From: Planctomycetaceae bacterium
GTDB lineage: Bacteria > Planctomycetota > Planctomycetia > Planctomycetales > Planctomycetaceae
Length of the DNA stretch: 64,000 nucleotides
Reading direction: 5' to 3'
NCBI GenBank assembly: GCA_028284885.1
Contig: JANQQW010000006.1
Span: 1-64,000 of the forward strand
The position numbers and the translations under genes were made by a program. The notes under the pieces are model-generated. The model was not told the origin of the DNA. It was given only the letters and a program-made list of their open reading frames with translations, and made no database searches. This document shows positions 43,435 to 46,739 of the stretch, piece after piece (within the stretch, counting starts at the first letter, position 1; every line of letters begins with the position of its first letter).

Positions 43435-43784
43435 GACTTCACTCCCATCAAGGCGATGCCGACCAGCAGCATCAGCATCCCGGCGACGTTCACCGGGCGG
43501 ATCGACTCGCCGAACCAGTGGGCCCCGATCAGCGACGACCAGACGAACGTCGTCGCGTAGACCGGGTAGAGGACGGCGGGGCTTCCACCCCGCTTGAACG
43601 CCGCCACGAACAACACCATGACGGCCACGTAACAGGCCACGCCGCCAAGAAGCATCGGCTCGACGAGGTAGGCGACGACGCCGCCCGTCGCCCGGTCCGC
43701 CCCGGCCTTGTACAGGAACTGGCCGACCGCCCCGAGGAACGAGGCCGCCAGGAACATCAGGATCGTCGCCCAGGGTGTGCTCAT
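43431..43784 (-). CDS. Small EamA/SMR-like four-helix membrane protein
   Basis: Protein of 117 residues made of four membrane helices (ILMFLAASFLGAVGQFLYKA, CYVAVMVLFVAAFK, LYPVYATTFVWSSLIGAHWF, GMLMLLVGIALMGVKS). The pattern fits half of an EamA transporter or an SMR/ArnE-like protein. The stop overlaps the next gene by ATGA. Because it heads a phospholipid operon, it may move a lipid-linked group, but that is inference. Confidence 0.7.
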   Translation of the reverse strand: MSTPWATILMFLAASFLGAVGQFLYKAGADRATGGVVAYLVEPMLLGGVACYVAVMVLFVAAFKRGGSPAVLYPVYATTFVWSSLIGAHWFGESIRPVNVAGMLMLLVGIALMGVKS

Positions 43785-43995
43785 CGCCGGCCTCCTTCGC
43801 GTTTCGACCGAGACCCGTGGACGCAGGCCCGGCCGGGATGTCACGCCCCGATCACCCGGAAAGCCGAGATTCCCCGCCCTGGAATCCGGAGAAGTGTGGG
43901 GATTCGCACGAGAGTCGGCCGAGCCGCACCCTACTATTCGACACGTTCGGCTTGGGCTAACCTTCAGCCGAAGGCCCGGCGGGAGAGCGGCGGCG

Positions 43996-46059
43996 GTGAA
44001 CGATCGCGTGCACGACGAACGGCAGCAGGAGACCAAGTCTTCGGACACCGCTCCGCCGGGCACGGTCTGGGACGGCACGGTGGAGATGTCGTCCCCCGTC
44101 CCCACGCTGCCGGACTTCGAGATCACGGCGGAACTCGGCCGCGGGGCGATGGGGGTCGTCTACGAGGCGTTGCAGATCCGGCTGAACCGCCGCGTCGCGG
44201 TCAAGATGATCGCCCCCACGCTCGACGCCGGACACCGTGGCCGCTTTCGGACCGAGGCCGAGGCGGTCGCCCAACTGCAGCACCCCAACATCGTGCAGGT
44301 CTTCGACTGCGGCGAGCACGACGGACGTCCGTTCCTCGTCCTCGAACTGGTCGAGGGCCACGGGCTCGACCACGCGGTCGCCAACGGCCCGCTGCCGCCC
44401 CGCCAGGCGGCCGAGACCGTCGTCAAGCTCGCCCGGGCGATGCAGCTTGCCCACGACAAGGGGATCGTGCACCGCGACCTGAAGCCGTCGAACGTGCTCG
44501 TCGACGCGAAGGGCGAGCCGAAGGTGACCGACTTCGGCCTCGCCAAGCAGCTCGCCGCGGACTCCGGACAGACGCAGGCCGGGCAGATCATGGGGACGCC
44601 CAGCTACATGTCGCCCGAGCAGGCGGCCGGTCGGAACGCGGAGGTCGGCCCGCTCGCCGACGTCTACTCCCTCGGGGCCATCCTGTACGACCTGCTGACC
44701 GGGCTCCCGCCGTTCGACGGCGAGACCGTCGTCGAGACGCTCGACCGCGTTCGCCACCGCAGTCCCCAGCCGCCCCGGCAGCTCGAGCCGAGAGTGCACC
44801 GCGACCTCGAGACCATCTGCCTCCGCTGTCTGGAGAAGGAGCCCCGCAGCCGGTACGGCTCGGCCGCCGCCCTCGCCGACGACCTCGAACGGTTCCTGAA
44901 CGGCGAGGCGATCCACGCCCGACCGATCTCCCGAGTCGAGTCGGTCGTCCGCTACGTCCGTCGTCGGCCGCGGGACTTCGCGCTGGCGTTCGCCGCGGTG
45001 CTCGCCGTCGTCCTCGGCGTGGCGGCGGCGGTCCGTTCGACGTGGAACGACGAGCAGGTTCGTGAGCGGATCGCCGAGCAGGCCCGCGAACTCGACGTGA
45101 ACCGCCCGGTCCTCGTGAAGTCGCCGCTCGGCCTGCCCGTCGTCGCGGTCCCGGCCGACAACCCGCTGACCGCCGGCAAGGTCGCCCTCGGCCGGCTCCT
45201 CTACTTCGACACGCGGCTCTCCGTCAACGGAACCGTCTCCTGTGCCACCTGCCACGAGCCGGTCAAGGGCTGGGCCGACGGCCTCCCGCTCTCCGAAGGG
45301 GTCGGCGGACAGCTGGCCGCCCGCAACGCCCCCACGGTCGTCAACGCCTCGCAGCATCCCCGGCTGTTCTGGGACGGCCGGGCCGACAAGCTCGAGACGC
45401 AGACGCTCGGACCGCTCCTCAACCCCAAGGAGATGGGCATGACGCCCGGCCGGGTCGTCGAGGTGCTCGGCGGGATCGACGGCTACCGCACACGGTTCGA
45501 CGAGGTCTTCGAGGACGGACTCACGTTCGAGAACGTCGGCCGCGCCATCGCCGCCTACGAACGAACGCTCGTCGCCGGGGACTCGCCGTTCGACCGGTTC
45601 ACTGCGGGAGAGTCCGGCGCCCTCTCCCCGGCCGCCGAGCGGGGCCGCCGGCTGTTCTTCGGCAAGGCCCACTGCTCCGCCTGCCACGTCGGGCCGAACC
45701 TGACCGACCAGGCGTTCCACAACGTCGGCGTCGGCGTCGACGAGCAGGGCGTGCCCCGCGACGAGGGCCGCCGCAGCGAGGGCCGCCTCGACGGCGACCA
45801 CGGCGCCTTCCGCACGCCCCCCCTACGCGACCTCCACCGCACCGCCCCGTACATGCACGACGGCAGCCTCGCCACACTCGCCGAGGTCGTCGAGCACTAC
45901 GACCGCGGCGGAACGCCGAACGCGTGGCTCGACGAGGAGATCTTCCCCCTCGACCTGACCGACGACGAGAAACGCGACCTCGTCGCCTTCCTCCGCGAAG
46001 GCCTCGCCAGCGGCACCTATCCGTTCGACAAGGTCGAGGCGGACGAGTTCCCAGAGTAA
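43996..46059 (+). CDS. Ser/Thr kinase fused to di-haem cytochrome c peroxidase
   Basis: Protein of 687 residues from a GTG with GGAGAG upstream. Residues 40-310 are a Hanks kinase: P-loop GRGAMGVVYEA, K70 in VAVK, HRDLKPSN with D161, DFG at 179-181 and GTPSYMSPEQ. A basic stretch leads to one membrane helix (about 328-346). Residues 365-670 are a MauG/CcpA-type di-haem peroxidase: CATCH at 416-420, CSACH at 560-564, and APYMHDGS with Met620, a likely haem ligand. The kinase would be cytoplasmic and the haem domain outside, so periplasmic peroxide or redox state could control phosphorylation. No frame break is visible at the junction. It is divergent from the phospholipid operon. Confidence 0.9.
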   Translation: MNDRVHDERQQETKSSDTAPPGTVWDGTVEMSSPVPTLPDFEITAELGRGAMGVVYEALQIRLNRRVAVKMIAPTLDAGHRGRFRTEAEAVAQLQHPNIVQVFDCGEHDGRPFLVLELVEGHGLDHAVANGPLPPRQAAETVVKLARAMQLAHDKGIVHRDLKPSNVLVDAKGEPKVTDFGLAKQLAADSGQTQAGQIMGTPSYMSPEQAAGRNAEVGPLADVYSLGAILYDLLTGLPPFDGETVVETLDRVRHRSPQPPRQLEPRVHRDLETICLRCLEKEPRSRYGSAAALADDLERFLNGEAIHARPISRVESVVRYVRRRPRDFALAFAAVLAVVLGVAAAVRSTWNDEQVRERIAEQARELDVNRPVLVKSPLGLPVVAVPADNPLTAGKVALGRLLYFDTRLSVNGTVSCATCHEPVKGWADGLPLSEGVGGQLAARNAPTVVNASQHPRLFWDGRADKLETQTLGPLLNPKEMGMTPGRVVEVLGGIDGYRTRFDEVFEDGLTFENVGRAIAAYERTLVAGDSPFDRFTAGESGALSPAAERGRRLFFGKAHCSACHVGPNLTDQAFHNVGVGVDEQGVPRDEGRRSEGRLDGDHGAFRTPPLRDLHRTAPYMHDGSLATLAEVVEHYDRGGTPNAWLDEEIFPLDLTDDEKRDLVAFLREGLASGTYPFDKVEADEFPE

Positions 46060-46145: not shown

Positions 46146-46739
46146 TCACCCCGGCTTCCGGGGCCACTGGTTCGCGCGAACGTTCTCGGCGGCCAGCCGG
46201 GCCGTATCCTCGACCCGTTTCTCCCGCGTCGCGGCCCGCTTCGCGTTGACGATCCACTCCAGGATGCCCCGCTCGGCCGACCGCGGGAACGCCTCGAACT
46301 TCTCCCGCGAACCCGGATGCCGGTCGAACGCGGCTGCGAGGTCGTCGGGGATCTCGAGGTTCTCGACGGCGTCCAGCCGGGACCACGACCCGTCCGCCTT
46401 TGCCGCCTCGATCTTCGCGAGACCCGCCGGCTGCATCAGGCCGGCCTTCGTCATCCGTTCGACCCGTTCCTTGTTCGGCCGCGACCACCCGCTGCCCGGC
46501 TTCCGCGGTGCGAACCACAGCAGCGACCTCTCCGCGTCGAGCTTCTTCGGCACGCTGTCGATCCAGCCGAAGCAGATCGCCTCCTCGACGGCCTCGTCGT
46601 ACTCCACTCGCGGCCGGCCGGTCGCCTTCTTGAAGGTCACCAGCCACACGCCCTCGTCGCGGCCGTGGTTCGCCTCCAGCCACGCCCGCCACTCGGCCCG
46701 CGACAGCGGATGCACGGCGTTCTCGGGCAGATTGCTCAC
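46146..46739 (-). CDS. YdeI/OmpD-associated family protein
   Basis: Protein of 197 residues starting at GTG. The family signature is clear: SRAEWRAWLEANHGRDEGVW, EEAICFGWIDSVPKKLD, WFAPRKPGSGWSRPNKERV, and the C-terminal GILEWIVNAKRAATREKRVE. YdeI relatives were linked to resistance to cationic peptides and lysozyme in Salmonella; the biochemical activity is unknown. It starts four bases after the transglutaminase stop codon and should be co-translated with it. Confidence 0.9.
   Translation of the reverse strand: MSNLPENAVHPLSRAEWRAWLEANHGRDEGVWLVTFKKATGRPRVEYDEAVEEAICFGWIDSVPKKLDAERSLLWFAPRKPGSGWSRPNKERVERMTKAGLMQPAGLAKIEAAKADGSWSRLDAVENLEIPDDLAAAFDRHPGSREKFEAFPRSAERGILEWIVNAKRAATREKRVEDTARLAAENVRANQWPRKPG

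Follow-up and report, generated by a model that had tools for sequence, protein, structure and literature searches.

Ser/Thr kinases number tens to hundreds in planctomycetes and, to our knowledge, almost none of them has a known input. In a 64,000-nt stretch of DNA from a Planctomycetaceae bacterium (positions 1 to 64,000 of contig JANQQW010000006.1, assembly GCA_028284885.1; hereafter the window), one open reading frame appeared to join a kinase of this kind to a di-haem peroxidase across a single membrane helix. Is the fusion real, to which class of haem enzymes does its outer half belong, and what might such an enzyme do for a kinase?

Structure of the fusion gene

The features of the gene are listed in Table 1. 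The frame is unbroken from the GTG codon at 43996 to the stop codon at 46057-46059, and an SD-like GGGAGAG at 43981-43987 lies 8 nt before the GTG. The exact start of the gene is uncertain, and the N-terminal tail is not conserved among relatives. The upstream neighbour is divergent and the downstream neighbour (46146-46739, minus strand) is convergent, which indicates that the fusion gene is monocistronic. No conserved operon partner was common to the four fusion loci described below, and no peroxide-stress partner was seen in the gene context of any of the four fusion genomes.

As shown by Pfam searches, hydropathy and intact motifs, the initial annotation was right in describing an open frame with a complete Hanks kinase, one transmembrane helix and two CxxCH sites. 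It had also taken the frame for a single gene and not a chimera of two. Because the window genome is a draft in 399 contigs, a chimera produced by assembly or gene calling had to be weighed. The GC content at the third codon position was 0.93 in the kinase, 0.88 in the transmembrane segment and 0.94 in the peroxidase, uniform over the junction and without a frame switch, and the same domain order was found in three other genera, one of them represented by a single-contig genome (G013). A chimera or misassembly is ruled out by this recurrence and by the uniform codon bias, and we regard its probability as negligible. The fusion of kinase and di-haem domain is real and not a local assembly error.

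Table 1. Features of the kinase-peroxidase fusion locus (positions in the window).
Feature	Position	Strand	Evidence or remark
Gap of 211 bp to divergent neighbour	43785..43995	.	Neighbour starts at 43784, minus strand
Kinase-TM-di-haem peroxidase fusion gene, 687 aa	43996..46059	+	Frame, SD-like site, Pfam, recurrence in G013, G083 and G002
Hanks-type Ser/Thr kinase domain, residues 42-294	44119..44877	+	Pfam PF00069 Pkinase, E 2.4e-52
Single transmembrane (TM) helix, residues 325-349	44968..45042	+	Kyte-Doolittle maximum 2.74 at 328; AlphaFold2 helix 325-349
Short outer linker helix between membrane and peroxidase domain, residues 352-365	45049..45090	+	AlphaFold2, low to moderate confidence
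CCP_MauG domain, peroxidatic haem half, residues 395-539	45178..45612	+	Pfam PF03150, E 7.2e-55
First c-haem site CATCH, residues 416-420	45241..45255	+	Cys, Cys and His invariant in 62/62 aligned relatives
Val436, position of classical bCcp distal His	45301..45303	+	Aligned to His of 2c1u and 1nml
Trp459, equivalent of inter-haem Trp (MauG Trp93)	45370..45372	+	FWDGRA motif aligned to bCcps
Second cytochrome c half (Cytochrom_C), residues 547-667	45634..45996	+	Pfam PF00034, E 7.7e-06
Second c-haem site CSACH, residues 560-564	45673..45687	+	Cys, Cys and His invariant in 62/62 relatives
Met620, in conserved PYMHDG motif	45853..45855	+	15 residues before ligand position; Phe in solved bCcps
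Tyr635, predicted distal ligand of second haem	45898..45900	+	MauG Tyr294 / MbnH Tyr position; Met in bCcps

Kinase domain and membrane topology

The catalytic motifs of a Hanks-type receptor kinase are all complete, namely the Gly loop (GRGAMG), the Lys of VAVK, HRDLKPSN, DFG and SPEQ with its APE-like Glu. The nearest solved fold is M. tuberculosis PknB, with a TM-score, taken by target, of up to 0.91. The domain is a PknB-like Ser/Thr kinase. Kinase fold and topology are shared with the PASTA kinases (PknB, Stk1), whereas the outer domain is unrelated to theirs. No PASTA domain was found in the fusion protein by Pfam search, and the protein scored 299 bits, below the 450-bit cut-off of the PASTA-kinase equivalog.

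Only one hydrophobic segment, at about residues 325-349, is present in the whole protein. It is preceded by the basic stretch RYVRRRPR, so the positive-inside rule predicts a cytoplasmic kinase. Since c-haems are attached outside the cytoplasmic membrane, the peroxidase half is expected in the periplasm.

Ligand residues of the di-haem domain

The match to PF03150 together with two c-haem sites places the outer half in the CCP_MauG superfamily. The initial annotation had called it MauG/CcpA-type, with Met620 as a haem ligand. To classify the domain we used 62 aligned relatives drawn from several phyla and the solved structures; the ligands were assigned by alignment alone, the structure models being haem-free. 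Trp occupied the position of Trp459 in 61 of the 62 relatives, and His the position of Val436 in only one. Tyr was found at position 635 in 59 of the 60 relatives having a residue there. Tyr635 lines up with the Tyr of MbnH (6e1c), and a gap-free alignment pairs it with residue 294 of wild-type MauG chains; the alignment to 3orv, a MauG Y294H mutant chain, ends before the ligand residue. The PYMHDG motif aligns with PYFH of bCcps, and it is Tyr635 that falls on the bCcp Met position. Met620 as a ligand is ruled out by this alignment to solved structures.

According to published work, bCcps are Met-His ligated and MauG is Tyr-His ligated (PMC6405878). Classical bCcps (CcpA) share with the fusion the fold and the catalytic Gln, Glu and Trp, but they carry Met on the second (electron-transfer) haem where the fusion has Tyr635, and, where it has Val436, a distal His that blocks the first haem at rest. 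With MauG and MbnH the fusion has in common the di-haem fold, the Tyr aligned as distal ligand of the second haem (Tyr294 in MauG), the lack of a distal His on the first and the inter-haem Trp. It differs from both in being joined to a kinase and in its scores, which lie below the curated equivalog cut-offs of TTQ_mauG (244 vs 443.85 bits) and MbnH (217 vs 362.85 bits). The MauG surface residue Trp199, which we take to sit two residues before the second CxxCH, is not kept either: Ala558 stands in this place, a position taken by Ala/Gly. The catalytic peroxidase residues Gln469, Glu479 and Trp459 are conserved in all four fusions.

The modelled haem domain was closest to bCcps, several of them in mixed-valence (activated) forms, and to MbnH, and a sequence profile ranked bCcps highest among PDB structures. 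The likeness to MauG thus stems from the ligand residues rather than from similarity of the whole domain. Judged by these residues, the domain is MauG/MbnH-like and not CcpA-type, so that the first part of the initial assignment is retained and the second is dropped. The first (peroxidatic) haem is probably open at rest, as predicted for the subfamily as a whole, and from the distal-ligand pattern the resting enzyme would not need reductive activation.

Distribution and history of the fusion

We asked whether the order kinase-peroxidase recurs in other planctomycetes, and it does. The full architecture was present in 4 of 170 genomes of the family and in 4 of its 58 genera, one genome per genus. 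Besides the window genome, the carriers are G013 and the uncultured Planctomycetaceae A_MB81_1 (G083, CALSLT010000014.1), both with the same domain order, and G002, whose copy is cut at a contig end and lacks the kinase N lobe. These copies are about 52-54% identical to the window protein. The order is therefore neither confined to the window genome nor broken at the junction. Searches of the class (398 genomes) and the phylum (392 genomes) detected no further fusion at E <= 1e-120, a threshold within reach of an ordinary two-domain match. Two other families, sampled with 48 more genomes that partly overlap the earlier ones, also had none. Phyla beyond Planctomycetota were covered only by a pattern scan, among the matches listed. 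Most genomes of the family have the stand-alone enzyme only, and the fusion is rare. In the loci examined, which had short flanks, no kinase gene was seen next to a separate peroxidase gene.

The four fusion kinase domains form one clade (SH-aLRT 91) in trees of 95 and of 102 rows, in favour of a common origin. The fusion peroxidase domains are not part of the large clade formed by the stand-alone enzymes of the family; three of them group together (97/70) and that of G002 is placed elsewhere. A tree holding all four together was borderline (AU p 0.045), with long branches. The simplest reading is one old fusion followed by loss, and it is possible that the peroxidase domain of G002 was replaced later.

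Identity among the four fusions was 51-63% in the kinase and 51-59% in the peroxidase, but 7-36% in the TM helix and linker. Both catalytic halves have been kept while the segment between them drifted, which suggests two functional parts held together. The poorly conserved linker would also suit a simple tether, in which the kinase lends its membrane anchor to the peroxidase and neither activity affects the other. In planctomycete kinases of this type the C-terminal part is readily exchanged, with WD40, TPR and cytochromes among those found on the relatives compared here (see also PMC11032199). A mere anchor would let its catalytic residues decay, however, and those of the kinase are fully kept in every fusion that covers them. 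We consider a simple tether quite unlikely.

Neighbouring genes and other peroxidases

MauG and MbnH act on partner proteins, and the neighbourhood of the peroxidase genes is of interest in this respect. A secreted beta-propeller gene lies beside the stand-alone relatives in 22 of the 35 family loci with room to show one (L007-L041; e.g. L014, L024 and L032), and the fusion of G083 also adjoins a propeller gene. Stand-alone peroxidase and secreted propeller are possibly an enzyme-substrate or enzyme-partner pair. The other close peroxidase of the window genome (L039:8190-10133, contig 371 of G000) consists of a CCP_MauG domain joined to an SMP-30 (SGL) propeller; it is apparently secreted and is followed by an NHL-like propeller gene. 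Two adjacent CCP_MauG-like genes stand in tandem on the contig of a Bacteroidetes MAG (L114:4691-6858).

The propeller neighbours recall the action of MauG and MbnH on partners, which makes a second explanation a real rival: the haem domain may be a working enzyme that oxidises a partner protein outside, with the kinase reporting or controlling this maturation step. The Tyr ligand and the open haem agree with such a role, as does the peroxidase-SMP-30 fusion in the window genome, and MauG-like genes are known to neighbour an enzyme for which a protein-derived cofactor has been proposed (PMC5739008). Yet no propeller gene adjoins the fusion of the window genome, of G013 or of G002 (in G002 the fusion is at a contig end), the Trp199 that MauG uses for long-range oxidation is replaced, and the scores are well below both curated cut-offs. 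On balance we think a working enzyme of this kind unlikely.

Related kinases with c-haem modules

In the tree, the closest kinases have WD40, TPR or other C-terminal regions. A kinase close to that of the fusion (L066, 187-2070) bears two PSCyt1 mono-haem domains, and a class-wide search found this kinase-TM-double PSCyt1 arrangement in at least 12 genomes, one with a single haem site seen, and partial-length matches in several more. These proteins (L066:187-2070 and L174-L185; family f3) share with the fusion the kinase lineage (one starred set of 21 rows), the layout and two CxxCH motifs after the TM helix. They differ from it in having two mono-haem domains without the peroxidase fold, a separate kinase clade, and full-length cases in family f3 and not in the family of the window. 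Two further kinases (L093:7566-9587 and L149:1099-3078) have a C-terminal Tll0287-like (sCache_heme) domain with one CxxCH. A published account describes the Tll0287-like family as c-haem Cache sensors and reports NO-sensor properties for those fused to signalling modules (PMC12889525).

Related kinases thus carry haem modules that are not peroxidases, and the haem pair of the fusion might likewise respond to NO or to how reduced the periplasmic cytochrome pool is, without turning over peroxide catalytically in the cell. All four fusions keep Gln469, Glu479 and Trp459, however, which a sensor of redox state alone could do without, and we hold this explanation to be improbable.

The planctomycete kinase survey reports 105 accessory domain groups in 307 architectures, and its main text describes single-span kinases with periplasmic WD40, TPR, sulfatase-modifying and DUF1080 domains (PMC11032199). 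The order of parts is that of the fusion, i.e. cytoplasmic kinase, basic juxtamembrane stretch, one TM helix and periplasmic C-terminal domain, whereas the outer part of the fusion is a complete di-haem enzyme. The contrast that the initial annotation drew between kinases known with PASTA or WD40 sensors and one with an outer enzyme of this type went too far, given the sulfatase-modifying factor and DUF1080 domains described there and the haem-bearing C-terminal domains that recur on related kinases. The fusion is a variant of a known modular planctomycete kinase architecture and does not amount to a new type of system. Among the domains named in the main text of the survey there is no cytochrome, peroxidase or haem domain; its supplementary tables might list such cases. 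No paper naming both CCP_MauG and Pkinase, and no relevant paper pairing PSCyt1 or a planctomycete cytochrome with a protein kinase, was found in a search of the main texts of openly readable papers. Within the literature searched, the kinase and CCP_MauG fusion looks undescribed. The recurrence of three c-haem modules (CCP_MauG, double PSCyt1 and Tll0287-like) on related kinases suggests a general theme.

Proposed function and significance

The function that we infer for the fusion with the best support is sensing of peroxide or redox state across the membrane. In the model, the open first haem would be the site of reaction with H2O2 or another oxidant, and the haem pair would thereby reach a high-valent state. 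A change in structure or dimer packing would then be relayed by the linker and TM helix, and kinase autophosphorylation would rise or fall, as PASTA kinases respond to outer ligands. We counted for the model the two intact halves, the recurrence in four genera, the single kinase clade, the distal-ligand pattern, the match of the structure model to bCcps and MbnH, and the haem modules on related kinases. Against it stand the rarity of the fusion, the lack of a peroxide-stress partner near any of the four genes, and a full enzymatic machinery that exceeds the needs of a sensor. That the MauG/MbnH-like domain serves as an outer sensor of peroxide or redox state and controls the kinase through the TM helix is, in our judgement from the sequences, about evenly poised between right and wrong.

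A broader form of the sensor model is offered only tentatively. Here a Tyr-ligated di-haem enzyme capable of a bis-Fe(IV) state would be the outer sensor of a receptor kinase, peroxide chemistry outside would set phosphorylation inside, and the fusion would belong, as one branch, to a larger and undescribed group of planctomycete Ser/Thr kinases linked to c-haem modules (CCP_MauG, double PSCyt1 and Tll0287-like).

A haem-enzyme outer domain with defined chemistry is a directly testable kinase input (H2O2, NO or redox poise), for which the stand-alone enzyme in the same genomes provides a control. If the sensor model is true, the fusion would connect peroxide chemistry outside the cytoplasm to protein phosphorylation in a single component, and would give a MauG/MbnH-type centre a role in signalling and not in biosynthesis or detoxification.
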